Source of the DNA: Blakeslea trispora | Lineage: Eukaryota; Mucoromycota; Mucoromycetes; Mucorales; Choanephoraceae | Assembly: GCA_025331445.1 (NCBI GenBank) | Contig: JAIWNE010000024.1 | Coordinates: 281,001 to 345,000 of the forward strand | Length of the DNA: 64,000 nucleotides | Direction of reading: 5' to 3' | Made by a program: the position numbers and the translations under genes | Notes under the pieces: generated by a model | Seen by the model: the letters and a program-made list of their open reading frames with translations, nothing else | What the model was told of the DNA's origin: nothing | Databases searched by the model: none | Part shown: positions 15,447-38,000 of the stretch, in pieces | Position numbering within the stretch: the first letter of the stretch is position 1 | Layout of the letters: each line of letters starts with the position of its first letter

Positions 15447-15530
15447 TGTAATGTTTAAATGTGTGTGACCGTAGAATAGCAGAATAAAAGATAGTTCAAA
15501 AACAGATAAAGAATCTATTAAATCTCAACA
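15447..15530 (-). repeat. Gypsy copy 1, 3' LTR (84 bp)
   Basis: Matches 22675-22763 except for loss of about 5 bases. It begins and ends with the TG...CA dinucleotides on the element strand. It is unusually short for a gypsy LTR. Confidence 0.9.
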
Positions 15531-16242
15531 TCCCACAGCGAGATGAGACTATAGATGAAATGAATAAAATATAGAATATAAAATGGATAAGATATAAGAA
15601 AGGAAGATAAAGTGATAAAAGAATAAAATATAAAAATAATATCTGCTTAGTTTTGTTTCTGATGATACTTCTTGAGTCTTGAAATATGGACATTTATGAT
15701 CTTCTTGTTAGACGAGACATCCTTCAAATCAACGGTAGATTTTGACTTGACAGAAGTAACAAAGAATGGACCCAGCCAATCGAACAAAAGTTTTCTTGGA
15801 CTTCTTGATGATGAGAGTGACTGATTGAAGACAAGTACTTTGTCGTTTACTTGGTACGGGTTTTCCATAGTTGGGTGTTCAACAGATTTCATGTGGTTGT
15901 CGACTACATCGAAGGCTAAATTGAGTCTTTGCTGCAATTCCGTAGCATAAGCTTCTTCTGGCAAGAGACGATCGTTGTATTGTTGTATACTCTCAGTTCT
16001 ATACAACGGAAACTTTGCATGCCTGCCATGCACCAAGTAAAATGGTGTGTTACCAGTACTCTCATGGGTTGTGTTGTTATAAACAAATTGTATTAGACGA
16101 AGATGTTTATCCCATTCGGTTTTGATGATTTCTTGATTTGTGTAGGTGAGTATCATTCTACGCAAAGTGGCCATAAACCTCTCGACAATACCATTAGACT
16201 GTGGATGGTAAGGCGGAGCAAAGAGATTGTGAGAACCCAATA

Positions 16243-18980
16243 ACGTGCCTCTGAACTTAAAACTACAAAAATATTGTTAATATTCAAAAATCTTCACATA
16301 AAAACTTTCATATAAAAAATAAAAAACTGAGTGTATAACTCTGTTGAGAAAACGTTTTTGAACACGATGATCCACTCAGTTTCTGGAATTTCATATAAAA
16401 GTTTTCATGTAAAGGTTTTTGAAAGTTGATCGGTTTTTCAAAATTTAAGCTGGGGAGATATAGAGGGGACCAAGGAAATGAAACAGGTCAATGTACTGCT
16501 AAAGATTTGAAAGACCGTTATGTATATTTGTGTAATAAATGGAAGCCAATAAAAACTGTGTATAGCAATTTTTGTGTTCCCTTCAGATTATGGTGATTAT
16601 TTTTAGGAACTGACATCCATATAGCAAAAGTTTTCCTTTATCCAACTTATTATTAAATATGCCCTTCCCAAGCAAAAGAAAAGCAAGATTCAACGCCCAG
16701 AAAAAGGACGCTAAAGGAAAATTCTTGAAAGAGAATGTTCCTGAAGTTATTTCTGAAGAAGTAATTGAAATAAATGAAGATTAGGAAACTTTGGGTGGTG
16801 AAATGGATATGTCAGCCCTTTCCCGCCTAACAGATAGTGTATCCTCTGGTGAGAAGAGAAAGATCCACTACACTAAGGACTCTAGAACCACAAAGTGGAG
16901 AAGAAAAGTGGAGTCCAGCAAGGTAGACCCCAAATCTACCTTGTTCAACTTTGGTATCACTGTTGTCAACAGTGATACCCAGGAACAAAATGAAGACGAT
17001 GAGCAGGATGCTGAAGATAGGCTGACCCATCCTAAGAGGGAATTGATCAAGATCAGCAATTGCATTGAATTGTTGCGTGAGCAGGTGAAGCCTGAAATGA
17101 ACCAGAGAATGGAAGGTAGCTCAGTAGGTTCATACAACCAATGCCGCTTGTACTCTGTTCTCATGTACTTTGAACTTCGTTTGGAAGGAATGAAGATGGG
17201 CAAGGCATCCCAGAGAGTATCTAAACTTTTCTGGCCAAGTTACTCTAAGGATGACCGCTCAAGAAGCATCATGAGTTGGGTAAAGGAATACCTTGAGCAC
17301 AATAATCTCTCCGATCATAGCCAAGGTGTTCACACCAAAAGGCAATCCTTCTTGAGTCACAACGACGTAAAGATGCAAGTCGTAGAGTATATGCAGAGAA
17401 CAAAGCCTGCTGAAAGATTGCTTGTGGCCATCAAGGACTTCATTGAAACTGAAGTAATCCCTTCTTCTTTGGGTGTGCCTGGAACTGTTGCCATCTCTAC
17501 CATCAGCAAGTACTTGCATGAATGGGGCTACTCTTATGGCAACAAGAAAGGCCTCTTCTTTGATGGACATGAAAGAGAAGATGTGGTGAAGTACGGAAAA
17601 GAATGGGCTCTACGAATGGTAGACTACATGCATAGATCCGAGTTTTACGAGGGAGATCAAGAAGAAAATGTTCTTGAACCAGTTCTTTTGGAGGGTGAAG
17701 AGAAGGTTGTATTCGTCACTCATGACGAATCAACCTTTTACGCCAACGATGGCAAAAATGACATTTGGAGTTTGGAAGGTGAATCTTTCATCCGCAAAAA
17801 GGGGCCTGGATCCTCCATTATGGTAAGTGAATTCCAGTGCCCCTGTCATGGGACGATGAAGTTGGGTGGATGGACCTCCCGTAAGCTTTTCAAAGCTGGA
17901 GAGAGTAGATACGGTTGGTGGACTCATAAAGACATGGTCTCTCAGCTGGACTATGTCATTGGGCTGTTCGAAAACTTACATCCTAACTGCCGAGCTGTAT
18001 TCCTGTTTGACAACAGTTCAAACCATGGTGCTTACAGTGATGACGCATTGGTTGTAAGTCGTATGACTCTCAACGAGAAACCATGATCTCTGACTGATAA
18101 ATATCAGTTCAGAGACACAACCGTCAAACTCTCGACCGGTGAGCTTCTTCATCAGTCATTTTTTTATGAGAAAGAAATCTCTTCTCATGACTCAAAAGGT
18201 AGACCCAAAAACAAACGAGTCAGATATTTTAAAGGTAAATAGCACATGTATTTCCGAAGCAAACTCTTCTAACATCTTTACAATAACAGGAATCAAACGA
18301 ATTCTTGAAGAACGTGGCCAATGGCTTGGTGACCTTGAAGGCAAGGTATGGAAACTTCGTTGTGGTGCTGCTGAGCCAGGTTTGAAGTCTATGTGCTGCG
18401 CTTCCCATTTCCTGGGAAGTAGAGTGGATTTTGCAGCTCAAAAGACTGCTTTACAAGAAGCAGTAGAAAATGCTGGTCACATTTTCGAACTTTATCCAAA
18501 ATATTACTGCGAATGCAATTGGAGACGCATTAAGAATTGGCCAAGAGAGAGGCTAGATTGAGATGTGATGACACATTCAAGTCTCTCGAAAAGAACATCC
18601 CCATGTTTTTGGACAATGCAGGAGATGTCAAGAAAATACGAAGATTTTTTCAACGTTGCATGAACTATATCGAAGCATATAGTAAGCACGACGATGGCAG
18701 AGAAATAGCAAAGGAGTTGAAGAAGTTTGTAGAAAAAAAGTATTTGTCCCATAGAAAAGTGAGAGCTCCTCAAGACATTTAAAAGTTAAAAAAGAAAAAA
18801 AGAAAACACTTGATGAAGGATTGCTCTCAATTGTGATTTAATTATGCTGCTCAAAGAAAAGAAATCCCCAAAAAGATTGACAGGTCGTATGATCGATCCA
18901 TACCAAAAGCAAAAAAAAAAATGAGTCCTCAAAAAATGAAACAATTTCTTGTTTTTGTGGTTTTAAGTTCAGAGGCACGT
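16243..18980 (+). mobile_element. 2.74-kb TA-inserting DNA transposon nested in the gypsy integrase
   Basis: Bounded by perfect 21-bp terminal inverted repeats (16243-16263, beginning ACGTGCCTCTGA, and 18960-18980) and flanked by TA dinucleotides at 16241-16242 and 18981-18982. It carries one transposase-like gene on the plus strand. TA duplication and the DDE motifs put it close to the IS630/Tc1-mariner supergroup. The insertion post-dates the gypsy insertion. Confidence 0.88.
16659..18782 (+). pseudogene. DDE (IS630/Tc1-related) transposase of the nested element
   Basis: Frame from ATG 16659, with an in-frame TAG at 16782-16784, then a long open stretch to 18086. Motifs in order: helix-turn-helix-like region (TISKYLHEWGYSYGNKKG), first catalytic Asp in FVTHDESTFYANDG, second Asp in VFLFDNSSNHGAYSDDA, and the third region YPKYYCECNW (family form resembles HCECNWIE) near 18490-18530. 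There the frame shifts, and the true tail with AKREARLRCD continues at 18537-18782. An intron is likely between about 18233 and 18290 (GTAAATAG...ATAACAG), and the frame is also disturbed near 18080-18110. The architecture is longer than ordinary Tc1 transposases. Similar long proteins with DEST and DNSSNHGA motifs occur in fungal genomes as unnamed families (from memory, not searched). Nonfunctional here. Confidence 0.75.
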
Positions 18981-21900
18981 TACCTTGGTAAGTTGAGTAA
19001 AGAAAATTGAGTTGAATGGTGGCCCTCCATCAGTAAGAATATCTTGAGGAACACCATGTCGTAAAACAAACCGATTGAAGAATACCTTGACTATTTCATC
19101 TTGAGTGGTAGATTGAACAGGGTAGACTTCTACATATTTGGTGAAAGAGTCAATAACGACCAAGGCATATTTGTTTAGATTGATAGACACAGGTAAAGGA
19201 CCAAAGAAATCAAGTGAAACACGAAGAAATGCAAAATCAGATGAAGTATTGTTCAAATTGTAGTTATGAACCTTGCCACCTTTGATGTGTTGACATACAT
19301 CACACGATTTGCAAAACTGCTTGACTTCTTGCGACATACTGGACCACCAAAGTTGTTGTTGTAAAATCTTTGACTTTGTTTTCTTGTGACCAAAGTGACC
19401 TCCCAAGGGAGAGTTGTGATACTGTTGACAGACTGCTTGAGTATGTGCTCGAGGAACCACCCAAAAAGAGATTCTTGCTGTGGATAGAATTCTTTGTTGG
19501 TAAGGTCTTGTACAGTACATTATCAATGACACTGAAAGATTCATGTTGCTGTATGTTGTTGATAATGTCCAAGATGTCAGAATCCTCAGATTGAGCCTTG
19601 GACCAGTCAAATTGAGATGACAGAATTGTTTCTTGGATAGCTTGGACACTTGGAATAACAGAGTGACGAGAAAGAGCATCCACCGCAGGGTTGTTAGTAC
19701 CAGCTACATGGAAGACTTCAAATTGATAGCTTTGCAGAAACATAATCCAACGCCAGACTCTTGCAGATACGTCATCCTTTGCATTTAGAATCCACTGTAA
19801 ACTGGAATGGTCAGTGTAAATAAGGAAAGTTTTTCTCTCCAAGAAGGGACGAAATTTTTTGATACCAAAGATGATGGCTAGACACTCTTGTTCTCGAACA
19901 GAGTATCGCTGTTCATGGATGGTCAATGCGCGAGAAGCAAACGCTAACGGATAAGGAATATTATCGTGTTTCTGATACAGGATTACTGCAATTCCAGCAG
20001 ATGATGCCGCATCGGTATGTAACTCAAATGTCTTCGAGAAATCGGGTTGGCGTAAAGTTGGAAGTAAGCATAAATCAGTCTTCAGTTGATCAAATGCCTC
20101 AACCTGTTCACGACCCCACACGAATTCAACGTCCTTCTTCTTTAAGCGACGCAAAGGTTCAGTTTTGACTTGGTATTGACTAATAAAGCGCTGGTATACG
20201 CCAGTCATGCCAAGGAAACGCTCTAACTCGGTGATGTTAGTCGGTGCTTGATACTGAATGATGGGTTTGACTTTAGCAGGGTTTGCACTAACACCTTCGG
20301 CAGAAACAATAAAACCGAGATATTCTACAGAATCTAGAATGAATTGGGATTTAGACAGTTTGATTGACAGATTTGCTTCCTTTAACCGAATGAGAATTTG
20401 ATGAAGATGTAGCTTGTGTTCCTCCACAGTACGGCTGTACACTATGATGTCATCTTGATATGCAAAAGCAAAGGAGTAACGACATGGACCAAGCATCATG
20501 TCCATTAACGATTGAAAATATGCTGGAGAATTTCGCATCCCCATAGGCATTACAGTGAAAACATAAGTACCATTGGTGGTGACAAGAGCAGTTTTTTCCT
20601 TATCAGCCTTCTTGATGGGAATTTGGAAATATCCTTGTGCTAAATCAAGTTTACTAAATATCTTTGCTTGCCCCAATGATTGTAACATATGATGCATGTT
20701 GGGAAAAGGATAGTTCAAAGGTTTGGTGACTCGATTGATTGGTATATAGTTACCACATACACGGATGGAGCCATCAGGCTTCTCCACTGGACGGACTTGA
20801 GCACCCCATTCGCAAAAGGAAACCTTTTCTAATAAACCAAATTCAACCATGTTGTCTAATTTATTATCAATTTGAGATTGGAGTTCAGGGTGAAAAATTC
20901 TAGGCTTGCTGTATATAGGAGGACTATCACCAGTGTCAATGGCAAATTCAATAAGGTGAGTAACAGACGGCCGATCAGGGTTCTTGGCAACAATACTATC
21001 AAATTCAGTTGTGATGAAGTTAGAAAATGATTTCTGATGTTCATCTTGAGTTAGGTTCTGAATAACTGGTTCCTTTGTGGTGTCTAAAGGAATGGTGATG
21101 GTCTTGTTGTTGATAAGAAGACTGACATGTCCAGCTGTGCTGTTAATAGAACCATGCAAATCACAAATAGTATTCCAACCAACGATCAACTTGCTGGAAA
21201 TACCATCAATGACATGGACTTTGATCTTTAAACCAAGGAGTGGAATAAGTGCTGTACCGCATGTGTTCTTGATGTTGTTGTTGACATCTCGGTACGGAAT
21301 ACTCTCCTTGTTATTAAGAGGGATACTCAAAGTTGAGAACAATCTATAACAAATGCCGTTAATGTCGGCGCCTGTGTCCCAAAGCAACGAGGTTGATTTG
21401 TTGTTTAGGGTTACAGTGCTTCTTGGCAAATTGCGCAAGTCCGTCGCAAAGTGTGAAATATCGACAGAGAATGATGATAATGGCATTTGGTTATTGGATT
21501 GTGATTCATGTGATTGCATCTCCTGAATTCGAGGCTGGTTCTTGTGTTTGTGGCGATTACCCTTCTGGTTATAGTGTTGTTTGTTGTGAAACTGTTTGTT
21601 GGTTTTGTTATGGTCGATTGTTCGATGCTTGTCTCTAAATATGTCACAAATTGGATTACCTTGCTTATCATATGCTCTCAACTGCTTAGGTTGCTGCGTG
21701 TTAGCATGAATGTTGGAGTGTTGATACTGTTTGGCACGGTATTGTTGTGAGGACATGTAGTCAAGATCCATCGGCATAGGTTGGCTGTTATTCGAATTAT
21801 GTTGTACCACAGTTTCAGGTTCATCAAGTAACCAGGCTTTAACTTCCAAATTAATAGCTTGGTCTATAACTTTTGAAACAGTATCAAGCTTTAGTGAAGC

Positions 21901-22674
21901 TACTAGTGAAGTTAAAGTGAGTTTAGTGTCTCGATGGTTAAGTGATTGAATAAAATAAGTGATTTGAGTATCCTGAGTGTATGTATCAGAGATAAGACTC
22001 AATAAGTGTTCCCACTTAGCCGCATGAAGTCGAACAGATTCGTTTGGTAGTTGCCTACACTCTTTCAATTGTTTAAGGAGACGACGATTGTCCTCCTCCT
22101 CCAGAATGCCAAATCGGGTAATGAGGGATTCCGTGAGAAGAGTCCATGACGATACAATGGTAGGTGCAAGTGTTGGGATCCATTGCTGAATGACATTGGG
22201 CATGTACTGAGCGAGATGAACAGTACAAATATCCATGTTGACAATTCCATGAATTTGAGCTTGTTGATGGAATTGGCGTAACCAAATACGAATGCTGGAT
22301 GTCAAATCATACTTAGCCATAGGTACGGATTTGGCTCGCTCCTGCAAAAGGTACTGAGAAAAATCAGACGAAGCGGGTGGGTCAAGGGGCAAAGCCATTG
22401 GATTAGAATGTGCAGATCCAGATATGGTAAAAAGAAAATGAACTGGAGGCAAGTGGAATGACTCAAATGAAGAGGTAGAAGAATGTACTGACGGAGATCG
22501 ACTGCGTTGATCTGTGTTGTAACTTAAAGAAGTTGAAGTTGTTGTCGGTAGTGGACCGAAAGGAAATATAGGTTGTGGAGAAGATTCTCTGCGAGAACGC
22601 TTACTGTAGGGAGTGAAAGAATAGCTGTTTGACCTCTTAATGCTGTAATTCTAGGCAAGTGGGTAGCCTCACCA

Positions 22675-22763
22675 TGTAATGTTTAAATGTGTGTGACCGT
22701 AGAATAGCAGAATAAAAGATAGTTTATTTCAAAAACAGATAAAGAATCTATTAAATCTCAACA
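22675..22763 (-). repeat. Gypsy copy 1, 5' LTR (89 bp)
   Basis: Near-identical to 15447-15530 and identical to the inverted copy at 29958-30046. Followed on the element strand by a TGG-starting putative primer-binding site. Confidence 0.9.
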
Positions 22764-23041
22764 CATCAATTTAGTACATGGTCTGGTTTGGGTGGGAGAG
22801 CTAAAGGACAAAAGCGACAAAAAGAAGAAAAACAACAGATTATGAAAAGAAGGCGATAACAACAAGAGACATTCAAATACAAATTTGTTGGTATGGCGTC
22901 CATTCTCACAATCCACAAATTGAACTACAAACAACTAGTGAATATTACAAAAAAGGGTTTGTGATGACTTTCAAATTGTTGTTTAATAAGTTGTGCTGAA
23001 AGCAGATCGCGAACATTTATCTTTCTTTACTAACTTTTATT
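22764..23041. promoter_or_regulatory. Upstream region of the PD-(D/E)XK-like gene (left copy)
   Basis: 278 bp between the gypsy LTR and the ATG at 23042; no TATA box is clear. The last 30-35 bases before the ATG are conserved in all three gene copies (left, right and the truncated copy at 34624-34844), so they travel with the gene. Confidence 0.4.
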
Positions 23042-24902
23042 ATGGATTCTACAAAAGCAGATTTATTACTAAAGAACTATTTTGATTTATGCTCGTCTGA
23101 TGATATTGAGCCTACATTTGCGCATTTTATACAAACTTCCTTTCAAAGCATACGGCCTTTACTGATCTCTGATCATATCGATAACTTCAGCGATTGGCTC
23201 AGCGCATTCAGAAGATATGCACAAGAACACGGCTTCGGCAAGGTAGTTGCAAATGCTCAAATATGAATCAAAACAAACTTATTCTAATCTTGTCAATAGA
23301 TCAAGAAAGGACAGGCATTGAAAGCCTGGGAGACTTATGTAAGTTCCTAAAATTTCGGTATATGTCCTTGCCATAACCATCATTTGCATAGGCTGTATTC
23401 AAAAAGCCCCACAGTATCAAGAGAAGTCACAAGACTGCTAACGTTGTTGAAGTGTAAGTGTAGGTCATCTGTCTGTACCACAAGAGAAACTAATAATTCA
23501 ACATCAACATAGGCTTGAAAGCTTTAAGCTCCGCAAGCAAAAGGAAAACTGCTTTGTCTTTGAGGAGTATGATGTTGGCAAGGCCATGAATGACTTTGCT
23601 CAACAATCTCTGGCTAGCTTCAGAAAAGAACAGAACAATGCCAGCAGATTTCGTGATGACATGAACAAATGGCTGTAAGTCTTGGTCATTTTCTTTTCTG
23701 CTTAATACTAACGCTAGTCTTTCAGAGCTATCCATAGTATCATAAAGCTCAACAAGCATATTGATACTGATCTGGTTGGTGTGTATCAAAGCACAAAGGT
23801 AGAAGGCTTGTGCAAAAGTTTTAAGAAGAAATTTGTTGGGAAGCCTGCTTGCTTGAGTTCAAGCATCAAAGTTGAGATTTTGGATCTCCTGACGGTATGT
23901 AGTTATTTGGATTGTTTCAAATTTTAGCCAATCTCTAATCAGTAAACAAATAGGAGTTTCAAGATGATGAAGATGCTAAGAAGCTGAAATCCGAGCTTTG
24001 CAAGATTGCCAGTAGAGAAGATGGTGCTGTTTCTCGCACGGTAGAAAGCCTGTCAGTCCTGTAAGTAAAATGCATACATAAACCTTGATGAAACAATCAT
24101 CTAACTCATTTGAAATAGAGTCAACAAGATGACATCAAGGAAGCAGGAGATCGGAGAGAAGAAGACGGAGAACATCCTTGAGGCAGTATGGGGATGCATC
24201 TTCAAATTAACAAATGATCATGATCCTCGTGGGTAAGAATCAAAGCTTTAAGGAGATAACAGTCAGCAACTCACTTTTTTTTATATATCAGATTTGACAA
24301 TGTGCTGTTCCCTCCACCTCACCCTCTTGCTGGATTACGACCAGATTTTGCTGTAGAAGTTTGTGGTGATGAGACGTTCGTCAACCTGATTGGCGAAGTA
24401 AAGTCACACTGTTACTCCCCTTCCAAACTTGCTTTGGACACTTATCGTCTGGGTGTTTTCTCTGTTGCCTTGCTGAACCAACATGGTTTGAAGCATATCT
24501 TAGCATTTCAAGCTAAAGGTATGTATGATACATGTACCAGTTTCTGAAGTAAACTAAACAGGAAAAAATAGGGCTAGAAGTAACATTCTACCTGTGCTTC
24601 TATCATCTTGGTAGCTATGTCATGACGGAAATTGAATGCATACAGTTTCCTTCGACAATAGACGAGTACTGCAGATTTGGTGCTTCTTTGGACGCATTGG
24701 CAAATGTGTGCAATGTTTATGAGCAACACTGTCAACAACAACAGCCACAGCCACAGCCACAGCCACAGCCACAGCCACAGCAACAGCCACAGCAACAGCA
24801 ACAGCCACAGCAACAGCAACAGCAACAGCCACAGCAACAGCAACAGCCACAGCAACAGCAACAGCAACAGCAACAGCCACAGCAACAGCAACAGCAACAG
24901 CC

Positions 24903-24949
<47 letters not shown>

Positions 24950-25110
24950 CACAGCAACAGCCTCAACAACAGCCTCAACAACAGCAACAACAAATAGCCA
25001 TCCTCCCTTATGATGTGCTAAAAAGCATATATGAGCTTTCAACAAGCAAATATACTGCCAAAGTCAATCAACAGTCATCTTCAACAGATGCATCTAGTAT
25101 TTTATTTTGA
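23042..25110 (+). CDS. PD-(D/E)XK-like nuclease-fold protein with Gln/Pro tract, left copy
   Basis: Nine exons: 23042-23242, 23300-23338, 23392-23453, 23513-23674, 23726-23894, 23954-24060, 24119-24232, 24292-24518 and 24572-25110. All have GT-AG introns of 50-60 nt and keep frame, giving 539 residues. Residues 1-280 look helical and charged with no known motif. Around residues 300-323 the sequence RPDFAVEV...LIGEVKS provides Asp303 and Glu320-x-Lys322, spaced and flanked by strands as in PD-(D/E)XK nucleases. This is followed by conserved-looking segments ending in MTEIECIQFPST. Residues from about 412 to 500 are a Gln/Pro repeat encoded by (CAGCAA/CAGCCA)n. I do not recognise a named family. 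The nuclease reading is inference from the catalytic-type motif. It is duplicated intact in the other arm and truncated at 34624. Confidence 0.72.
24736..24993 (+). repeat. CAG/CAA/CCA repeat tract coding poly-Gln/Pro (left copy)
   Basis: Starts with (CAGCCA)n and continues as CAGCAA with interspersed CCA. Two codons shorter than the tract in the right copy (27722-27985). Very long Leu-, Val- or Ser-rich ORFs in other frames are artefacts of it. Confidence 0.9.
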
Positions 25111-25631
25111 ATAAAACAAAGCTGGTCTTTGTTTTCTTCTAGTTATATCATAATTTGCATTCTGTCCTTTGCATTTTTGAGCATAATTTGATTAAGCAAG
25201 TCTTTCACGATGCCACTGATTTTGTTCTTTTTTATAAATCCTATTAGAAAGACAATGGACATACTAAAAGCAAATTTACAATAATGTCAATTTAAAACAA
25301 ACATGAGTTTCATGAATACTCAGGATTGACATTGAGCAGCATCTTGCTTATTTAAATTTTCTCTCCAAGTGAGTTGGAACGCAGGCATATATCATTACGG
25401 CGCAAAAGAGTCTGAGTGAAACAGGCTTCATGTGCTGTGGGCACAGGCATCCTGTGCCAAATAACCTCAGTTATCTTATATAGCTATTATCGTTTACTTT
25501 GACAATAAAAGTGCCAAATTTTACAATTAAGTTATTAGATACGAAGACGAGATGTGTATCAGTATGAGAGATGCTGTAATCTTTATTTCGAAAAAAATTG
25601 TTATATAAATCTCTGAAAAATCCAAATTTTT
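25111..25631. other. 3' flank of the PD-(D/E)XK-like gene, left arm
   Basis: AT-rich DNA with no ORF of note; mirrored at 27084-27604 in the right arm. The DIRS-like gag begins at its inner edge. Confidence 0.5.
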
Positions 25632-25878
25632 ATGACAAACTCACCAGTTCCTCAAGCTGACTTAGCCTCTGTGCTACAAACTTTACAATAACAACAAGAC
25701 GATCTTTGTTCCCTTGTGTTGCAACTGGCTACTCAACAGCAATCAGCATCCACGGCTGATATGGATACTTCTACTAGCTCTTCTGATCTCCCCTTTTGCC
25801 CTAGGTATAACCGGGTCTCCGAAGAAAGCCTTTCGCAACTGACGAACTTGGGACGCTCCGCTATGGGTTGACAATGCG
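25632..25878 (+). pseudogene. DIRS-like gag, 5' fragment (left arm)
   Basis: Mirror copy of 26838-27083. Starts at ATG 25632, has an in-frame TAA in a run of Gln codons near 25689, then the TADMDTSTSSSDLPF segment. A one-base insertion (GGG versus GG) lies near 25850, and the sequence then joins unrelated DIRS sequence at 25879. Confidence 0.55.
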
Positions 25879-26160
25879 TGCAATAGTTGAAGCGAGAGAG
25901 CGAACAGACACTGATTCGTTTGTCGATTTCTTGATGGCCTTGCGAAGATAACTGCGGATGGTGGATATCACCAGTGCTTGAGTAGGTTGACGGGAACTTA
26001 GGAACAAGCGGTCCAGTTGTGGTAGAGAATTTGCAATCTTGGGCGACGCAAAAGAGATTTGATTGCTTTGATAGGGCAAAGCCGTTGATCAATATGTTTA
26101 AAACCTGGCAAGTCTTGATAATATATTGAGAAGTAGATGGTTGATGGCGACGGAATGCCA
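25879..26160 (-). pseudogene. DIRS-like tyrosine recombinase, C-terminal fragment
   Basis: Read on the minus strand, frames in 26160-25861 give a segment with LCPI followed by LFLSSRQPTQALVISTIR and then SVSVRSLASTIA. These resemble the C-terminal half of the tyrosine recombinase of DIRS elements: CPV/I-A region, LFLS, then an R-S-x-A-S box in the position of the H-x-x-R motif. Frames are shifted and the catalytic Tyr region is missing where the left arm begins. The assignment is by motif resemblance only. Confidence 0.5.
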
Positions 26161-27083
26161 GTTATCCGCATATTGTTATAGGCGAGCTCCTACTGGGGGG
26201 TAGGAGCTGATTTCTTTTTGTTGTTGGGTTGACTGTTCTGGTGTTATTGGGAGCGCCTCGGATTGTATCGTTGACGAGTGTTTCCGGATTGAAAAACCTG
26301 TTGGCTGTGGGGTATAGAGTAGAATCCACAATGCTGCAATAATGGACCTGATCGAAAGTGTTGTGAGGGCGGTGCACGAAAACAATCGAATTGAGATCGG
26401 CGACACTGTTAATGGGCTGTATTAGCCGCTGAGGATTTTCTGATAAGTTGTTCCTCAAAGACTTCTTGGTGAACCAAGTATTGTTTAGTCAGATTGGAGC
26501 TAATCTGTATCCGAGGGTCAACCGCCGAACATGCAAAATCTATCCGACTGTTTTGGATGCGAGTAAGACTATGTAATGCAAGACGACGTAAGTCGTTAAG
26601 GGTAGATAAAAGAGTAGCCTTATCCAATTTGTCATAGAATACATCTCTAATGATGATGCCCAGAGGGCTTAGAATGGCGGTCGCGGTGTAAATGGCTAGT
26701 TTCAAGCGAGAGTTCTAAAGGCGTTAGCGGCTCTTCATAGCCTTGACCGCTTTGGGCATTGTGTCAGGGGGACTGTAAGCCAAGCCTCGAATTGGTGGGT
26801 AGCTGTCAATGATTTGTTTCCACTCATCATTGAGGATCGCATTGTCAACCCATAGCGGAGCGTCCAAGTTCGTCAGTTGCGAAAGGCTTTCTTCGGAGAC
26901 CCGGTTATACCTAGGGCAAAAGGGGAGATCAGAAGAGCTAGTAGAAGTATCCATATCAGCCGTGGATGCTGATTGCTGTTGAGTAGCCAGTTGCAACACA
27001 AGGGAACAAAGATCGTCTTGTTGTTATTGTAAAGTTTGTAGCACAGAGGCTAAGTCAGCTTGAGGAACTGGTGAGTTTGTCAT
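26161..27083 (-). pseudogene. DIRS-like gag ORF, broken
   Basis: Minus-strand frame from ATG 27081-27083. It has an in-frame TAA in a Gln run (likely CAA to TAA), the segment SLSQLTNLDAPLWVDNAILN, two stops near 26710-26730, then an Ala/Leu-rich helical stretch (LKLAIYTATAILSPLG ... NDLRRLALHS) and a decayed tail. Pro/Gln-rich start plus an AT-helix domain fits the ORF1/gag of fungal DIRS elements. Its first 246 bases are part of the right palindrome arm; the remainder lies in the spacer. Moderately sure because a recombinase-like fragment follows in the same orientation. Confidence 0.5.
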
Positions 27084-27604
27084 AAAAATTTGGATTTTTC
27101 AGAGATTTATATAACAATTTTTTTCGAAATAAAGATTACAGCATCTCTCATACTGATACACATCTCGTCTTCGTATCTAATAACTTAATTGTAAAATTTG
27201 GCACTTTTATTGTCAAAGTAAACGATAATAGCTATATAAGATAACTGAGGTTATTTGGCACAGGATGCCTGTGCCCACAGCACATGAAGCCTGTTTCACT
27301 CAGACTCTTTTGCGCCGTAATGATATATGCCTGCGTTCCAACTCACTTGGAGAGAAAATTTAAATAAGCAAGATGCTGCTCAATGTCAATCCTGAGTATT
27401 CATGAAACTCATGTTTGTTTTAAATTGACATTATTGTAAATTTGCTTTTAGTATGTCCATTGTCTTTCTAATAGGATTTATAAAAAAGAACAAAATCAGT
27501 GGCATCGTGAAAGACTTGCTTAATCAAATTATGCTCAAAAATGCAAAGGACAGAATGCAAATTATGATATAACTAGAAGAAAACAAAGACCAGCTTTGTT
27601 TTAT

Positions 27605-27765
27605 TCAAAATAAAATACTAGATGCATCTGTTGAAGATGACTGTTGATTGACTTTGGCAGTATATTTGCTTGTTGAAAGCTCATATATGCTTTTTAGCAC
27701 ATCATAAGGGAGGATGGCTATTTGTTGTTGCTGTTGTTGAGGCTGTTGTTGAGGCTGTTGCTGTG

Positions 27766-27812
<47 letters not shown>

Positions 27813-29679
27813 GGCTGTTGCTGTTGCTGTTGCTGTGGCTGTTGCTGTTGCTGTTGCTGTTGCTGTGGCTGTTGCTGTTGCTGTGGCTGTTGCTGTTGCT
27901 GTTGCTGTTGCTGTGGCTGTTGCTGTTGCTGTGGCTGTTGCTGTGGCTGTGGCTGTGGCTGTGGCTGTGGCTGTGGCTGTTGTTGTTGACAGTGTTGCTC
28001 ATAAACATTGCACACATTTGCCAATGCGTCCAAAGAAGCACCAAATCTGCAGTACTCGTCTATTGTCGAAGGAAACTGTATGCATTCAATTTCCGTCATG
28101 ACATAGCTACCAAGATGATAGAAGCACAGGTAGAATGTTACTTCTAGCCCTATTTTTTCCTGTTTAGTTTACTTCAGAAACTGGTACATGTATCATACAT
28201 ACCTTTAGCTTGAAATGCTAAGATATGCTTCAAACCATGTTGGTTCAGCAAGGCAACAGAGAAAACACCCAGACGATAAGTGTCCAAAGCAAGTTTGGAA
28301 GGGGAGTAACAGTGTGACTTTACTTCGCCAATCAGGTTGACGAACGTCTCATCACCACAAACTTCTACAGCAAAATCTGGTCGTAATCCAGCAAGAGGGT
28401 GAGGTGGAGGGAACAGCACATTGTCAAATCTGATATATAAAAAAAAGTGAGTTGCTGACTGTTATCTCCTTAAAGCTTTGATTCTTACCCACGAGGATCA
28501 TGATCATTTGTTAATTTGAAGATGCATCCCCATACTGCCTCAAGGATGTTCTCCGTCTTCTTCTCTCCGATCTCCTGCTTCCTTGATGTCATCTTGTTGA
28601 CTCTATTTCAAATGAGTTAGATGATTGTTTCATCAAGGTTTATGTATGCATTTTACTTACAGGACTGACAGGCTTTCTACCGTGCGAGAAACAGCACCAT
28701 CTTCTCTACTGGCAATCTTGCAAAGCTCGGATTTCAGCTTCTTAGCATCTTCATCATCTTGAAACTCCTATTTGTTTACTGATTAGAGATTGGCTAAAAT
28801 TTGAAACAATCCAAATAACTACATACCGTCAGGAGATCCAAAATCTCAACTTTGATGCTTGAACTCAAGCAAGCAGGCTTCCCAACAAATTTCTTCTTAA
28901 AACTTTTGCACAAGCCTTCTACCTTTGTGCTTTGATACACACCAACCAGATCAGTATCAATATGCTTGTTGAGCTTTATGATACTATGGATAGCTCTGAA
29001 AGACTAGCGTTAGTATTAAGCAGAAAAGAAAATGACCAAGACTTACAGCCATTTGTTCATGTCATCACGAAATCTGCTGGCATTGTTCTGTTCTTTTCTG
29101 AAGCTAGCCAGAGATTGTTGAGCAAAGTCATTCATGGCCTTGCCAACATCATACTCCTCAAAGACAAAGCAGTTTTCCTTTTGCTTGCGGAGCTTAAAGC
29201 TTTCAAGCCTATGTTGATGTTGAATTATTAGTTTCTCTTGTGGTACAGACAGATGACCTACACTTACACTTCAACAACGTTAGCAGTCTTGTGACTTCTC
29301 TTGATACTGTGGGGCTTTTTGAATACAGCCTATGCAAATGATGGTTATGGCAAGGACATATACCGAAATTTTAGGAACTTACATAAGTCTCCCAGGCTTT
29401 CAATGCCTGTCCTTTCTTGATCTATTGACAAGATTAGAATAAGTTTGTTTTGATTCATATTTGAGCATTTGCAACTACCTTGCCGAAGCCGTGTTCTTGT
29501 GCATATCTTCTGAATGCGCTGAGCCAATCGCTGAAGTTATCGATATGATCAGAGATCAGTAAAGGCCGTATGCTTTGAAAGGAAGTTTGTATAAAATGCG
29601 CAAATGTAGGCTCAATATCATCAGACGAGCATAAATCAAAATAGTTCTTTAGTAATAAATCTGCTTTTGTAGAATCCAT
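27605..29679 (-). CDS. PD-(D/E)XK-like nuclease-fold protein with Gln/Pro tract, right copy
   Basis: Inverted duplicate of the gene at 23042-25110. Exons on the minus strand: 29679-29479, 29421-29383, 29329-29268, 29208-29047, 28995-28827, 28767-28661, 28602-28489, 28429-28203 and 28149-27605. The protein is 541 residues, identical in the regions compared except two extra codons in the Gln/Pro tract. The putative catalytic residues (RPDFAVEV ... GEVKS) and all splice sites are preserved, so both copies could be expressed. Upstream (29680-29957) lies the same 278-bp region and then the gypsy 5' LTR in divergent orientation. Function unknown; nuclease activity is inferred from the motif only. 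Confidence 0.72.
27722..27985 (-). repeat. CAG/CAA/CCA repeat tract coding poly-Gln/Pro (right copy)
   Basis: Six bases longer than the left tract. This is the clearest length difference between the two palindrome arms and fits replication slippage after the duplication. Confidence 0.9.
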
Positions 29680-29957
29680 AATAAAAGTTAGTAAAGAAAG
29701 ATAAATGTTCGCGATCTGCTTTCAGCACAACTTATTAAACAACAATTTGAAAGTCATCACAAACCCTTTTTTGTAATATTCACTAGTTGTTTGTAGTTCA
29801 ATTTGTGGATTGTGAGAATGGACGCCATACCAACAAATTTGTATTTGAATGTCTCTTGTTGTTATCGCCTTCTTTTCATAATCTGTTGTTTTTCTTCTTT
29901 TTGTCGCTTTTGTCCTTTAGCTCTCCCACCCAAACCAGACCATGTACTAAATTGATG

Positions 29958-30046
29958 TGTTGAGATTTAATAGATTCTTTATCTGTTTTTGAAATAAACT
30001 ATCTTTTATTCTGCTATTCTACGGTCACACACATTTAAACATTACA
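29958..30046 (+). repeat. Gypsy copy 2, 5' LTR (89 bp)
   Basis: Exact reverse complement of 22675-22763 by inspection. Confidence 0.9.
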
Positions 30047-33000
30047 TGGTGAGGCTACCCACTTGCCTAGAATTACAGCATTAAGAGGTCAAACAGCTAT
30101 TCTTTCACTCCCTACAGTAAGCGTTCTCGCAGAGAATCTTCTCCACAACCTATATTTCCTTTCGGTCCACTACCGACAACAACTTCAACTTCTTTAAGTT
30201 ACAACACAGATCAACGCAGTCGATCTCCGTCAGTACATTCTTCTACCTCTTCATTTGAGTCATTCCACTTGCCTCCAGTTCATTTTCTTTTTACCATATC
30301 TGGATCTGCACATTCTAATCCAATGGCTTTGCCCCTTGACCCACCCGCTTCGTCTGATTTTTCTCAGTACCTTTTGCAGGAGCGAGCCAAATCCGTACCT
30401 ATGGCTAAGTATGATTTGACATCCAGCATTCGTATTTGGTTACGCCAATTCCATCAACAAGCTCAAATTCATGGAATTGTCAACATGGATATTTGTACTG
30501 TTCATCTCGCTCAGTACATGCCCAATGTCATTCAGCAATGGATCCCAACACTTGCACCTACCATTGTATCGTCATGGACTCTTCTCACGGAATCCCTCAT
30601 TACCCGATTTGGCATTCTGGAGGAGGAGGACAATCGTCGTCTCCTTAAACAATTGAAAGAGTGTAGGCAACTACCAAACGAATCTGTTCGACTTCATGCG
30701 GCTAAGTGGGAACACTTATTGAGTCTTATCTCTGATACATACACTCAGGATACTCAAATCACTTATTTTATTCAATCACTTAACCATCGAGACACTAAAC
30801 TCACTTTAACTTCACTAGTAGCTTCACTAAAGCTTGATACTGTTTCAAAAGTTATAGACCAAGCTATTAATTTGGAAGTTAAAGCCTGGTTACTTGATGA
30901 ACCTGAAACTGTGGTACAACATAATTCGAATAACAGCCAACCTATGCCGATGGATCTTGACTACATGTCCTCACAACAATACCGTGCCAAACAGTATCAA
31001 CACTCCAACATTCATGCTAACACGCAGCAACCTAAGCAGTTGAGAGCATATGATAAGCAAGGTAATCCAATTTGTGACATATTTAGAGACAAGCATCGAA
31101 CAATCGACCATAACAAAACCAACAAACAGTTTCACAACAAACAACACTATAACCAGAAGGGTAATCGCCACAAACACAAGAACCAGCCTCGAATTCAGGA
31201 GATGCAATCACATGAATCACAATCCAATAACCAAATGCCATTATCATCATTCTCTGTCGATATTTCACACTTTGCGACGGACTTGCGCAATTTGCCAAGA
31301 AGCACTGTAACCCTAAACAACAAATCAACCTCGTTGCTTTGGGACACAGGCGCCGACATTAACGGCATTTGTTATAGATTGTTCTCAACTTTGAGTATCC
31401 CTCTTAATAACAAGGAGAGTATTCCGTACCGAGATGTCAACAACAACATCAAGAACACATGCGGTACAGCACTTATTCCACTCCTTGGTTTAAAGATCAA
31501 AGTCCATGTCATTGATGGTATTTCCAGCAAGTTGATCGTTGGTTGGAATACTATTTGTGATTTGCATGGTTCTATTAACAGCACAGCTGGACATGTCAGT
31601 CTTCTTATCAACAACAAGACCATCACCATTCCTTTAGACACCACAAAGGAACCAGTTATTCAGAACCTAACTCAAGATGAACATCAGAAATCATTTTCTA
31701 ACTTCATCACAACTGAATTTGATAGTATTGTTGCCAAGAACCCTGATCGGCCGTCTGTTACTCACCTTATTGAATTTGCCATTGACACTGGTGATAGTCC
31801 TCCTATATACAGCAAGCCTAGAATTTTTCACCCTGAACTCCAATCTCAAATTGATAATAAATTAGACAACATGGTTGAATTTGGTTTATTAGAAAAGGTT
31901 TCCTTTTGCGAATGGGGTGCTCAAGTCCGTCCAGTGGAGAAGCCTGATGGCTCCATCCGTGTATGTGGTAACTATATACCAATCAATCGAGTCACCAAAC
32001 CTTTGAACTATCCTTTTCCCAACATGCATCATATGTTACAATCATTGGGGCAAGCAAAGATATTTAGTAAACTTGATTTAGCACAAGGATATTTCCAAAT
32101 TCCCATCAAGAAGGCTGATAAGGAAAAAACTGCTCTTGTCACCACCAATGGTACTTATGTTTTCACTGTAATGCCTATGGGGATGCGAAATTCTCCAGCA
32201 TATTTTCAATCGTTAATGGACATGATGCTTGGTCCATGTCGTTACTCCTTTGCTTTTGCATATCAAGATGACATCATAGTGTACAGCCGTACTGTGGAGG
32301 AACACAAGCTACATCTTCATCAAATTCTCATTCGGTTAAAGGAAGCAAATCTGTCAATCAAACTGTCTAAATCCCAATTCATTCTAGATTCTGTAGAATA
32401 TCTCGGTTTTATTGTTTCTGCCGAAGGTGTTAGTGCAAACCCTGCTAAAGTCAAACCCATCATTCAGTATCAAGCACCGACTAACATCACCGAGTTAGAG
32501 CGTTTCCTTGGCATGACTGGCGTATACCAGCGCTTTATTAGTCAATACCAAGTCAAAACTGAACCTTTGCGTCGCTTAAAGAAGAAGGACGTTGAATTCG
32601 TGTGGGGTCGTGAACAGGTTGAGGCATTTGATCAACTGAAGACTGATTTATGCTTACTTCCAACTTTACGCCAACCCGATTTCTCGAAGACATTTGAGTT
32701 ACATACCGATGCGGCATCATCTGCTGGAATTGCAGTAATCCTGTATCAGAAACACGATAATATTCCTTATCCGTTAGCGTTTGCTTCTCGCGCATTGACC
32801 ATCCATGAACAGCGATACTCTGTTCGAGAACAAGAGTGTCTAGCCATCATCTTTGGTATCAAAAAATTTCGTCCCTTCTTGGAGAGAAAAACTTTCCTTA
32901 TTTACACTGACCATTCCAGTTTACAGTGGATTCTAAATGCAAAGGATGACGTATCTGCAAGAGTCTGGCGTTGGATTATGTTTCTGCAAAGCTATCAATT

Positions 33001-33208
33001 TGAAGTCTTCCATGTAGCTGGTACTAACAACCCTGCGGTGGATGCTCTTTCTCGTCACTCTGTTATTCCAAGTGTCCAAGCTATCCAAGAAACAATTCTG
33101 TCATCTCAATTTGACTGGTCCAAGGCTCAATCTGAGGATTCTGACATCTTGGACATTATCAACAACATACAGCAACATGAATCTTTCAGTGTCATTGATA
33201 ATGTACTG
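29958..33208 (+). mobile_element. Gypsy element, copy 2, 3'-truncated
   Basis: 5' LTR at 29958-30046 preceded by GATG (the same target site as copy 1), the TGG-starting primer-binding-site candidate, then gag-pol to the RNase H/integrase junction. Integrase and 3' LTR are missing: the sequence stops at 33208 where a MITE begins. Because the target flank is shared with copy 1, this is a segmental copy and not an independent insertion. Confidence 0.92.
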
Positions 33209-33229
33209 ATTCAAAAAGTTTCACCCTGA
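30323..33229 (+). pseudogene. Gypsy Gag-Pol, truncated before integrase
   Basis: Open frame from ATG 30323 (frame open upstream to about 30073) through Gag, protease (LLWDTGAD), reverse transcriptase (YQDDIIVYS) and RNase H (ELHTDAASS). It shows no frame damage, then ends seven codons into the MITE with a stop at 33227-33229. Gag, protease, RT and RNase H could in principle be expressed, but integrase is absent. Confidence 0.9.
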
Positions 33230-33405
33230 AATTTATCTGTGATTAACAACTATTCTGCAGGAAATAGACTTGAATGAAACATGATCTCATGGTTAAAAAG
33301 CTCTTTTTCTTCCCAAGCATACTATGACATCCTGATTCATGCAAGTCTATTTCCTGCAGAATAGTTGCTAATCACAGATAAATTTCAGGGTGAAACTTTT
33401 TGAAT
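33209..33405. mobile_element. MITE with roughly 65-bp imperfect terminal inverted repeats
   Basis: Begins ATTCAAAAAGTTTCACCC and ends with the reverse complement GGGTGAAACTTTTTGAAT. The inverted match continues inward through the CTGCAGGAAATAGACTTG segment to about 33275 and 33340, leaving a short non-coding centre. It sits exactly at the outer end of the right palindrome arm. The target duplication is not clear (possibly AT). The same terminus occurs again near 34853-34870. Confidence 0.8.
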
Positions 33406-33682
33406 ACATCGCTAAGAATTTCTTTCTTCTCTTTACTTTTAAAATCCAAACAAAACGCTCAGAAACAAATAAATCGCTACTCCCGAACAACTCGCTGCAA
33501 AGCCTCATCTGAGAGAATATTTGGACGAGGTCGAAGCTATGCACCAAGAGTTCTTGGCAACCCACCCCGAAGAAAAGCCTGAAGATGTTGGTCTTTTGGT
33601 AGCCGGAAAGATGGCAAAGGGTTGGATTCCTGACCTCAAGAACTTTCTTGTTCCTGTGAAGACGCCCAGGGTGGAAGTCTAA
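33406..33682 (+). pseudogene. Short ORF remnant, unrecognised
   Basis: From about 33480 to the TAA at 33680-33682 the plus strand encodes a protein-like tail containing EQLAAKPHLREYLDEVEAM, HPEEKPEDVGLLVAGKMAKG and NFLVPVKTPRVEV. The composition looks like real coding sequence, but no start is present and I do not recognise the family. Probably the 3' end of a gene or element truncated at the MITE. Confidence 0.35.
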
Positions 33683-33930: not shown

Positions 33931-34625
33931 AATGTATTCTGGAAGAAAGGAATTAAGACGTTATGTCAAGACTGCCTCCGACCCAACCTTGGCGAAGTTT
34001 ATTGAAAGGCATTCCGACTTAGTTGGTAGTGAGGAACTCACTTTGCTGCAGCTAATGCAAGCATAGAGAGATTGCTTTATTGCTGTGCTAAAACAGTATC
34101 GTCCAGGTATGTCATCTGAGGGCCGCGTCACCTGTGACATAAATGTCTGGAAGAAGTTGAAAGTAAGTAATGCAGTTCATTGTCTTTTAGTTTTGGTTTT
34201 AACTTACCAAACGCGTTTATAGGTCTGCGACAGTAATGACATCCGCTCCATACTGTTTCAATGGCTTTATATTCTTGAAGAAGTCCGAAGATTTGCCTGC
34301 TTTTTTGGTTGAAAAGCAAGAACAGATTGATGCTTTGAAGTCAAGTGATTCCGATGATGTCTGCACAGCACTTGATAAGCTGAGTATCAACCTTTTGGAA
34401 GGATATACTGGTTTGTCTTGTCTTGAGAAGGAGGTGCTCAAGTTGTCTGTCAAAAATTGTTGACTTAGTCGATGCCGATTTTGAAGCTTACTTCCGACAG
34501 CATATACCAGCTCGTCATTTTGACAGCTGGTATAACTTGTCAACTGTCAGCAACCTTGCAGAACAAGAAGAAGCAAAGTTGAGAGAGCTTTGCCAGGATT
34601 TTGCCCGCCAAGTCCAGACAAGCAG
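33931..34625 (+). pseudogene. Unrecognised gene, broken, joined to a nuclease-like gene fragment
   Basis: ATG 33931 opens MYSGRKELRRYVKTAS..., with a TAG after LLQLMQA. The frame then continues to a GTAAGT donor near 34162 and a TATAG acceptor near 34221. After that, protein-like sequence is spread over frames (KSEDLPAFLVEKQEQIDAL; then IVDLVDADFEAYFRQHIPA and QEEAKLRELCQDFARQVQ), implying at least one stop and two frameshifts. The family was not recognised. Its 3' end abuts the partial copy of the PD-(D/E)XK-like gene. Confidence 0.4.
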
Positions 34626-34844
34626 ATCACGAACATTTATCTTTCTTTACCAACTTTTACTATGGATTCTACAAAAGCAGATTTATTACTAAAGAACTAT
34701 TTTGATTTATGCTCGTCTGATGATATTGAGCCTACATTTGCGCATTTTATACAAACTTCCTTTCAAAGCATACGGCCTTTACTGATCTCTGATCATATCG
34801 ATAACTTCAGCGATTGGCTCAGCGCATTCAGAAGATATGCACAA
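34624..34844 (+). pseudogene. Truncated third copy of the PD-(D/E)XK-like gene (exon 1 only)
   Basis: About 221 bp matching 23008-23224 with a few substitutions (for example before the ATG at 34662). It covers the upstream 35-40 bases and exon 1 up to AFRRYAQ. Then it breaks off and a MITE-like terminus (34853-34870) follows. The nuclease-motif exons are missing. Confidence 0.85.
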
Positions 34845-35073
34845 ATGTCGGGGTGAAACTTTTTGAATATATCTCTACCCTGCTTTCACCAAAGCATGTT
34901 TAATAAAAATGCTCTTCTTTTCCTTTTCCTTTTCCTCATAAATCAAAGAAAACAATATACCATTCTCTGTCTCAATAAAGCATAAGTCAGAGAAAACAAT
35001 ATACCATTATCTGCTTGTTTCACGAAAACATAAGTCAGATAGAACAGTGACAACGTATAAACTCATGTTATAG
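34845..35073. repeat. MITE-type terminus and short tandem repeat
   Basis: GGGTGAAACTTTTTGAAT at 34853-34870 repeats the MITE end. Downstream a roughly 55-bp unit containing GAAAACAATATACCATT occurs twice (about 34949-35022), with a third degenerate piece after it. No gene seen. Confidence 0.6.
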
Positions 35074-38000
35074 ATCCCGTTTTACATATTGGTTGGTCAG
35101 TATTTCTCGAACTCACCACCTGAGGATTTTTCATCGTTTAATGATCAGAAGAGATATACCGGCTTCGTACCTACCGGCACGTACATTCGAACTATCTACA
35201 CGGAAATCATAAAAGTCCTTCAACCAAGAGTGGACAAACATATGATGCTTTTGGATGGAAAGATCTTGAAGGGTGATCATTCATTCAAATTCCCAAAGCA
35301 TATGGCCAAAATTGACGACACCAGTGTGTTTACTGGTCTCTACACTATGACAAATGAATATGAAGAGATAGTACACCAAGTATTAGTGCCATCGAAGGCA
35401 CTGTCATATCTGAAGCACTCTTTTGAGAAAATGCGGGAAGCATACTTCGACTACGGGTATCAAATGCCAATTGCTTTTTTCACTGACAATGTGAAAGGTG
35501 ACCAGTCTTTTGTTGAGGGGATATTTGAATCTCTTAAAGAAGGTGTAGAGCCAGCAGATTAAGAAAGGATGAACACTTCAAGCACAGATAGCACATATCT
35601 TCAATTGTCTAATGATATCAATATTCTTTATTTATGTCGTGACTTTGATTCCATGGAGATTTCTCTCAGAGCTTTGTTTGAAGAGATCAAGTCGTCAGCT
35701 GAGGAAGGAGGCGATGTTGCTATAGGCTTTGATTGTGAATGGGATATCTGTTATTCTGAAGGAGTAGATAGCTGTAGAGTGGATGTGATTCAGATAGCAT
35801 TTGCCAAAGATGTCTATGTGCTCCATATTGATAGATGTTGGATTTCTTTACCCATCTCTTTGATGATGATTTTTGAGGATGAAAACATAAAGAAAGTTGG
35901 GCGGCAAGTAGGCGGTGACTTGAGCAGATTGGCAAAAAGTATGTGCGTCAATTTCAAAGGCAAACTTGAATTGGGATCCTTTTGCTCCTCAAGAAAAGTA
36001 GTGTCCAGCGGTGCAACTTCTTTGTCAGCAATTTCACTCAGTGCGCTGGGGAAAAGCATTCAGAAGTCAGAGCGAGAGACTCAATGGTCCTCAGAGACAC
36101 TCTCTTCCAAGCAGATAGAATACGCAGTCATAGATGCTTGGGCCAGCTTAACTATTTACGAAGCAATCAAGGCTATTCCTGAGACTGGTTCGCGCATTAA
36201 TTCGAAGAATTGTATACCAGGAACCTTTGTTTCTTTGAAGCCTCGTGGCTTAAAACATGTGGTTGCCTCCGGTCAGATTGAACAAATCAAAGATAACAAG
36301 CATGTTGAGAAAGGCTCCTGTCTTTTCAGGGTAACCAAAGTCTATATTCCAAGCTACATGGTGAATCCCGAAAATCTTGATAATAGATAAAACAATGAAG
36401 CCAGAAACTCTGCAGCTCCTGTTTGTTTGGGCTCATTCTCTAAACTTGGATTTGTTATCAAGGTTTTCAATTCTGATTTGATAACGGCACTAAGAGAAGA
36501 AGTACAAGAAGCTGGTAGTAGTGTCCGTCCGCCAAGCCAAAGGATCAGTGTGAGACCGAATGCAGTTGTCGTTAATAGTCTGAACGATTCTGAGAAAAAC
36601 GTTGAAGTTGTTGGATCGATCAATGATGCAGATGTTGATATTGCTTTCAACACTATGTTCCCTGATAACTTTTCTAATGTTGACAGCAAAAGCCTCGAAC
36701 ATGGCTATCAGCTGTTCACCTCCAATTTAAGAATAAGCCATGAGATAGTGCATGAACAGCATGATGACAAACGAGTCTTTACTCGTGTTGTCAAGGATGT
36801 ATTTCATCTGATGGATATGATAAGGCCTCATAAGCAGTACGGTCTTTACAAGGAATTCACTCAAAGATTTAGTGATAGTCTTTTTGTTCTCGATGAAGAT
36901 GACAAGAAGTTGGTTTCAGATGCATTGGCAAAGAATGGTGAAAATTGGGAAATGAGAATGAAGTATGACCCCAACTGGATTTGGGAAAGAGTCAAACCAA
37001 AGATTTGCTCTCCCGCTATACTTCTGCCAGTATTACAGTCTCTTTTCCTTCCGTTTGGACCCTTGATATGCTCCAAATCAGGACGTTCTCTTTCTGACAA
37101 AGTGTCTTGGGCGCAAGCACTGAGTGTCTTGAAGACTGTGCAGTTAGGCCATGTCTCGGATCCACCAGGTGTCCAACTTTATTACAAGAAGCAGAAAAAA
37201 GACAAGTATGGTCTCACTCTTCATAGATGTGTAAGAGAAACCAATTCATTGGAAGGAGGAGTTCACCAGAACCTTATCAGAAAGTTCGGGTCCTTTGGTG
37301 CAAGTCTAGAGCTTGCCTCTGCAACATTAGCTGAGTACCGATTAGGACATAACTTTGATGTTGGAACTTCCAATCGTCTTGGATTAGAGTACAAGGGTCA
37401 TTATGATCCTTGGCTGACTCAGTCTCTTGATTATTTGCGCCAAACTATGCAGATGGCTGATCGAGGTCTAAAGCATTTGGCAGTTGAAATCAATGCCTTG
37501 AAATTTTGTGGCTCTGAAGAGGTTTTTGGCATATGCCCTTTGCCAGATGAGGAAATGCAGCGGTTGGGTATTGAGAAGGTGGAAGGAAGTAGAGTGAGTT
37601 CGAGTTTAAGTAGTCCTGTGTATAACGTAGAAAAAGATCTTATGATACCAAATATCAAAGATACTGTTTTCTTGAAAATTGGTTCCACTCTCCATGAGAG
37701 AAATAGTCGGTATCAATTTGTGGCAAGTCATCAAAGGACCAAGTATGAACTGCAACTACAGCATACTTTAGAAGAAAAGCTTTTGTTTGGACGTCTATTG
37801 AAAGATGTTCTTGAGACATCAAATAGAATTACCCCTAACTTTGACCTTCTGGCCAAATAATGGAACACCTTTTGCGAGGGAGAAAGAGTGTTTTATAAAA
37901 CACCTGAACATTTAGAAAAGTATCATCGACATTGGAAGGAGCAGAAGCTAGCTCGCACTACTCATCAAGCACATCACAATACTATCTCGCTAATTCAGTC

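Follow-up and report, generated by a model that had tools for sequence, protein, structure and literature searches.

An almost perfect palindrome of 13.7 kb in the genome of Blakeslea trispora raises the question of how such a structure came into being, and whether it is a genuine part of the chromosome. The window that we analysed, i.e. the whole stretch of 64,000 nucleotides, corresponds to positions 281001-345000 of contig C157, and the genome searched comprised 37.2 Mb in 285 contigs. Among the papers listed by our literature searches, we saw none that described palindromes of this kind, either in Blakeslea or elsewhere in the Mucorales.

The palindrome and its content

The original prediction described two inverted arms around a 959-bp spacer, differing only by a 6-base indel in a repeat tract and a 1-base indel near the inner end. 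Alignment of the window to its own reverse complement (self-BLAST and global alignment) confirmed this arrangement and recovered both indels. It consists of the following parts:

19513-25878, + strand: left arm, 6366 bp
25879-26837, - strand: spacer, an internally deleted DIRS-type element with a part of gag, followed by the end of the tyrosine-recombinase frame
26838-33208, - strand: right arm, 6371 bp, reverse complement of the left arm

There were no substitutions between the arms over 6365 bp, which places their identity above the 99% that characterizes ampliconic palindromes. The 6-bp indel was located in a CAG tract (after 24806) and the 1-bp indel at 25850. Five mononucleotide shuffles of the window gave exact inverted matches of at most 15-19 bp, so that a chance origin of the palindrome is excluded.

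Both arms contain a gene of nine exons, intact in either copy, along with gypsy sequence (cut in the right copy) and the beginning of a decayed DIRS-type element. The gene and gypsy features of the region are:

23042-25110, + strand: arm gene, left copy, nine exons, 539 aa, glutamine-rich end
27605-29679, - strand: arm gene, right copy, nine exons, 541 aa
34620-34844, + strand: fragment like the 5' end of the arm gene, 225 bp, 98.7% identity, outside the palindrome
15447-22763, - strand: Ty3/gypsy element, both LTRs present, flanked by CATC at either end; interrupted at 16241-18982
29958-33208, + strand: gypsy part in the right arm, with one LTR, cut in pol at 33208

The gene was duplicated whole, as had been proposed, with eight GT-AG introns and an open frame in both arms. 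Homologs of its product were named only from Choanephora and Blakeslea; sequence searches of Pfam, NCBIfam and PDB gave no usable match, and the AlphaFold model (mean pLDDT of 45.9) was too weak to judge the fold. The motif RPDF..GEVK may point to a PD-(D/E)XK fold.

In the gypsy element, pol is spread over two reading frames, and the LTRs of 84 and 89 bp agree at every base except for a 5-bp indel. The element nested in its integrase region at 16241-18982 is DNA transposon-like, with 31-bp inverted ends that are 97% alike; the frame within it had no clear Pfam match.

The decayed DIRS-type element, which was absent from the original prediction, comprises the innermost ~185 bp of each arm together with the spacer. 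The spacer lacks ~2.36 kb found in two paralogs, and its sequence occurs once in the genome, where otherwise only diverged DIRS paralogs are present. The DIRS-type elements at C110:27-31 kb and C216:230-234 kb are 99.2% alike and have inverted ends of ~125 bp.

Native and new junctions

The four joins that delimit the arms, and the element that follows the last of them, are:

19512-19513, - strand: left outer join, native; the gypsy pol frames and the element continue across
25877-25879, no strand: left inner join (J1), new, with 2-bp microhomology CG
26837-26838, - strand: right inner join, native; the DIRS gag frame passes through
33208-33209, no strand: right outer join (J2), new and blunt, from gypsy pol to a truncated MITE
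33209-33414, + strand: foldback MITE, 82% self-complementary, without about its first nine bases

Both gypsy pol frames and the element itself cross position 19513, which makes the left outer join native. The right inner join is native as well, since the DIRS gag frame crosses 26838 and matches both paralogs (C110, C216) at 51% over 99 aa. At the left inner join, homology to both DIRS paralogs starts at 25877. The paralogs have CG before TGCAATAG and the arm likewise ends in CG, which marks J1 as newly formed, with a microhomology of 2 bp; this microhomology was deduced from the two DIRS paralogs and not from the ancestral locus, and 2 bp alone are weak evidence. At J2, no microhomology was seen between the arm end and the MITE, and the contig continues for 48 kb. 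With the right inner join native and both J1 and J2 new, everything from 33208 back to 25879 forms a single native segment, placed in inverted orientation.

This pattern of native and new junctions, together with the common gypsy insertion flank, bears out the earlier claim of a segmental inverted duplication. The gypsy insertion preceded the duplication and is itself young, as its LTRs show no substitutions over 84 bp. Thus the duplication need not be old, and the very recent origin claimed for it agrees with our results.

Fold-back as the probable source of the palindrome

We consider it probable that the palindrome is a natural and recent fold-back inverted duplication, which was broken once more and then end-joined. 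A chromosome break would have occurred within the decayed DIRS element, after which the resected 3' end would have folded back over 959 bp and primed on the 2-bp CG inverted microhomology. Copying would then have given a mirror-image molecule, at first hairpin-capped and later dicentric. A second break, 6.4 kb from the loop and in gypsy pol, may have left an end that was joined bluntly to DNA ending in the truncated foldback MITE. The native left outer and right inner joins, combined with the new left inner and right outer joins, represent the polarity predicted by fold-back with a second break: a break 6.4 kb out, on the side where the native arm-spacer join is retained, would give exactly what we observed once it was end-joined. 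The second join of the copied arm leads to other DNA, as fold-back would have it; however, neither the second break nor the dicentric stage has left a sequence trace of its own here.

A purely local fold-back would have left the left inner join native, contrary to the observation, unless the spacer was flipped later. Such a flip via arm-arm recombination, or else two template switches in one MMBIR-like repair event that inverted a 7.3-kb block, would give the same end product as fold-back with a second break, and nothing at this locus separates them from it. The template-switch variant needs no dicentric stage, and the joins of 2 bp and 0 bp, as well as the position of the 1-bp indel 28 bp from J1, would suit error-prone synthesis. 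Two long-range switches are, however, an extra assumption, and we regard both variants taken together as very improbable.

Fold-back followed by a second break has counterparts in other systems. The human fold-back inverted duplications described by Hermetz et al. (2014, PMC3907307) had spacers of 766-70,466 bp and inverted microhomology of 2-8 bp at 13 of 21 junctions. The Blakeslea locus resembles those with a disomic spacer in its single-copy spacer of ~1 kb and its 2-bp inverted microhomology, and shares with the human cases a second join to unrelated DNA; in contrast, the latter are described as megabase-scale patient rearrangements with terminal deletions, whereas the arms on C157 are 6.4 kb long and a fixed part of the reference assembly (PMC3907307). 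Yeast dicentrics formed by fold-back were reported to be stabilised by translocation or centromere loss (PMC10622511). Inverted duplications induced by double-strand breaks in yeast, as presented in these reports, share with our model the fold-back priming at inverted sequences, the dicentric stage and the stabilising second event, but come from mutants or induced breaks, and their second events were mostly homology-mediated, unlike J2, which is without homology (PMC10622511, PMC7467729, PMC10164571).

Inverted pairs of an orphan gene family

The palindrome had been treated as a lone oddity, a view that does not hold in the genome as a whole, where it is one of many. Searched against the genome in six frames, the arm gene matched 104 stretches, which corresponded to 56 gene copies when same-strand stretches less than 3.6 kb apart were merged. 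Among the 56 copies, 22 were arranged as 11 pairs of neighbours in opposite orientation, the two members of each pair matching over the same range and differing by no more than 1.2 bits in score (on C57, C58, C68, C74, C113, C157, C210, C222, C232, C242 and C272). The distances within these pairs ranged from 1.3 to 32.6 kb; nine pairs were divergent, and those on C157 and C57 were convergent. On the same strand, one near-equal neighbour pair was found (C224). Three more same-score pairs were 95-205 kb apart (two on C272, one on C1); the pair C272:32501/130217, with a distance of 97 kb, was left out of the 11, hence the number of 22 copies and not 23. Family neighbours less than 40 kb apart were on opposite strands in 14 cases and on the same strand in 5, in a count of 57 entries that kept two pieces on C265 separate, so that one of the 5 is the C265 split. 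The fragment at 34620 and the neighbours on C219 and C220 were the opposite-strand cases that were not near-equal.

Control families were read by eye for opposite-strand matches within a contig that covered the same part of the profile and differed by at most ~1.2 bits, a part of the first-look candidates being scored. No near-equal inverted pair was seen among the 150 protein kinase stretches listed or among the mitochondrial carrier matches listed (at least 153), and the reverse-transcriptase matches listed (at least 151) contained only the window's own pair. The explanation of the palindromes as a general retroelement trait was rejected on the last of these results; a looser RVT_1 pair on C67 (121.7 and 120.7 bits; 807 and 813 nt) was not counted. 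Fisher's test for 22/56 versus 0/150 gave 1e-14, a value that is overstated, as the copies within a pair are not independent. The share of family copies in near-equal inverted pairs, compared with none seen in the listed controls, argues for fold-back and against an artefact placed at random, although the pairs were noticed by their equal scores and diverged pairs are consequently under-counted. Moreover, the direct neighbours on C224 also had no substitutions in 1380 bp, so that inverted pairs are not alone in being identical. The locus on C157 is most likely one of a group of near-identical inverted pairs that cluster on this one orphan gene family.

Two further observations concern the surroundings of such copies: the region C224:50-86 kb contains direct copies 10-15 kb apart with common flanks, and a reverse-transcriptase frame lies between the arms of some inverted pairs (C112:719473, C234:94345).

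Recent origin, gene conversion or artefact

We compared nine inverted pairs, including that on C157, base by base and found 2 substitutions in 18,807 bp. The palindrome on C178 had arms of 2993 bp with one substitution, that on C194 arms of 1292 bp with none, and that on C272 (C272:31665-36235) arms of 2177 bp without any difference. Pairs of which the arms were compared in part only gave no substitutions on C234 (601 bp), C112 (839 bp), C13 (1494 bp) and C247 (1023 bp), and one on C262 (2023 bp). Dispersed copies diverged more: two DIRS copies had 25 substitutions in 4308 bp, two copies on C1 had 8 in ~1060 bp, and the dispersed copies of the unit on C272 differed by 1-2%.

The contrast between the inverted pairs and the dispersed DIRS and C272 copies is what would be expected if old palindromes were held identical by gene conversion between the arms, a process known from gene pairs of C. 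elegans (PMC1803023) and from primate X palindromes (PMC8981503). However, equal scores were the very criterion by which the pairs were searched, and on C157 the duplication is younger than an already young gypsy insertion, so that recency suffices; we therefore find an old, conversion-maintained palindrome improbable there. The suggestion of continuing gene conversion in the original prediction is thus unnecessary for this locus, while it is plausible for the whole palindrome set.

A different concern is that the palindrome was created by library preparation or assembly, through chimeric fold-back molecules, missed adapters or an assembler that turned back at a hairpin or repeat. Whole-genome amplification is reported to yield palindromic long reads (PMC6218980). 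The palindromes on C178 and C194, two of the nine compared, begin at the first base of their contigs, like chimeric contig ends, which speaks against fold-back in these cases, and those on C157 and C272 touch a repeated hairpin MITE. The arm differences are almost exclusively indels in runs or microsatellites, which are produced by slippage and imperfect polishing alike. On the other hand, spacers of 0.7-1.5 kb, as on C157, C178 and C194, would not suit missed adapters, and for C157 this variant is ruled out by the 959 bp between the arms. Both new joins on C157 are non-homologous and the contig goes on for 48 kb after J2; the right arm on C272 ends and is followed by unique DNA; and the pairs concentrate on one gene family instead of being placed at random. 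PacBio data of the 6mA type need unamplified DNA. A 6mA level of B. trispora was published in a PacBio-based study, which also argues against an artefact, although the strain or data set may differ from ours (PMC11258239). All in all, we judge an artefact to be unlikely. The locus is probably genuine and recent, and perhaps homogenised by gene conversion.

Gene-bearing palindromes with similar arms have been described in animals. In C. elegans, divergent or convergent paralogous pairs form nearly perfect inverted repeats that are alike within the genome, as in Blakeslea; according to Zhao et al. (2007, PMC1803023), these are actively maintained, with the structure shown in three species, whereas the Blakeslea pairs were examined in one species and, unlike those of C. 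elegans, cluster on one orphan family beside a MITE. Primate X palindromes likewise have gene-bearing arms that are more than 99% identical around a unique spacer, but their arms are reported as much longer (median of 37 kb) and lie on a sex chromosome (PMC8981503). The palindromic gene blocks of the springtail Folsomia candida also combine gene-bearing arms with a unique spacer, and their arms are more diverged than those on C157, with a Ks of 0.2 given for one (PMC5490193). Most of the known fold-back inverted duplications, in turn, come from patients, tumours and yeast mutants. With a natural case that has four readable junctions, in a genome that apparently holds many more, the process could be studied as a part of ordinary genome evolution.

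The foldback MITE and the palindrome on C272

The MITE at J2 was found in at least 31 other places in the genome, with 40 of 177 candidates scored. Most of the other copies shown retain the first ~nine bases, beside TA. Ten of the 31 listed places were within 4 kb of a listed gene-family member (C1 twice, C8, C12, C37, C218, C224 twice, C265 and C272), and the remaining 21 were not. In the window, a MITE-end remnant (34843-34877) directly follows the arm-gene fragment at 34620-34844.

The C272 palindrome is centred on this MITE, and an open frame of 483 aa recurs unchanged in its two arms. Its perfect arms around a complete MITE provide a second case in favour of fold-back, and the fold-back could have been primed by the ~206-bp hairpin of the MITE itself, which would then resemble the long-stem hairpin primers described in yeast (PMC10622511, PMC7467729, PMC10164571). 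On its left side, the palindrome is contiguous with a unit of which there are three copies with 98-99% identity (C272:130 kb, C37 and C218), while the right arm spans only a part of the unit and then passes into DNA found nowhere else in the genome. On C157, the MITE is located at the second join and not at the centre, and no palindrome other than that on C272 was seen with the MITE at its centre. Members of the palindrome set often lie close to this hairpin-forming MITE, but the set is tied to it less firmly than to the orphan gene family.

The existence of these three relatives, and the dispersal of the gene family, often in inverted pairs, could also mean that the arms are long inverted ends of a gene-carrying mobile element. 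The arm ends on C157, however, fall inside the gypsy element and the MITE, the right arm on C272 matches the unit only in part, and the pair distances vary from 1.3 to 32.6 kb. Target-site duplications were absent at the outer flanks of both C157 and C272, and with no common outer ends at these two loci either, a transposon with long inverted ends was rejected; we consider it scarcely credible.

With fold-back retained for C157, a wider and more tentative reading, which we hold to be possible but short of an even chance, is that the orphan family exists largely in near-identical inverted pairs, with hairpin MITEs seeding fold-backs and arm-to-arm gene conversion keeping the copies uniform. If true, this would give fungi a counterpart of sex-chromosome palindromes in which the seed is visible. 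In the fold-back explanation itself, MITE hairpins and inverted family copies would favour such events, and gene conversion between the arms may then keep these alike. Both the seeding of large palindromes and the upkeep of similarity between their arms become testable through the clustering on one family and the central position of the MITE in the C272 palindrome.

Further along the window, at 35074-37860, we noticed several frames, one of them with a 3'-5' exonuclease domain (PF01612), which are perhaps parts of a transposon-like gene.
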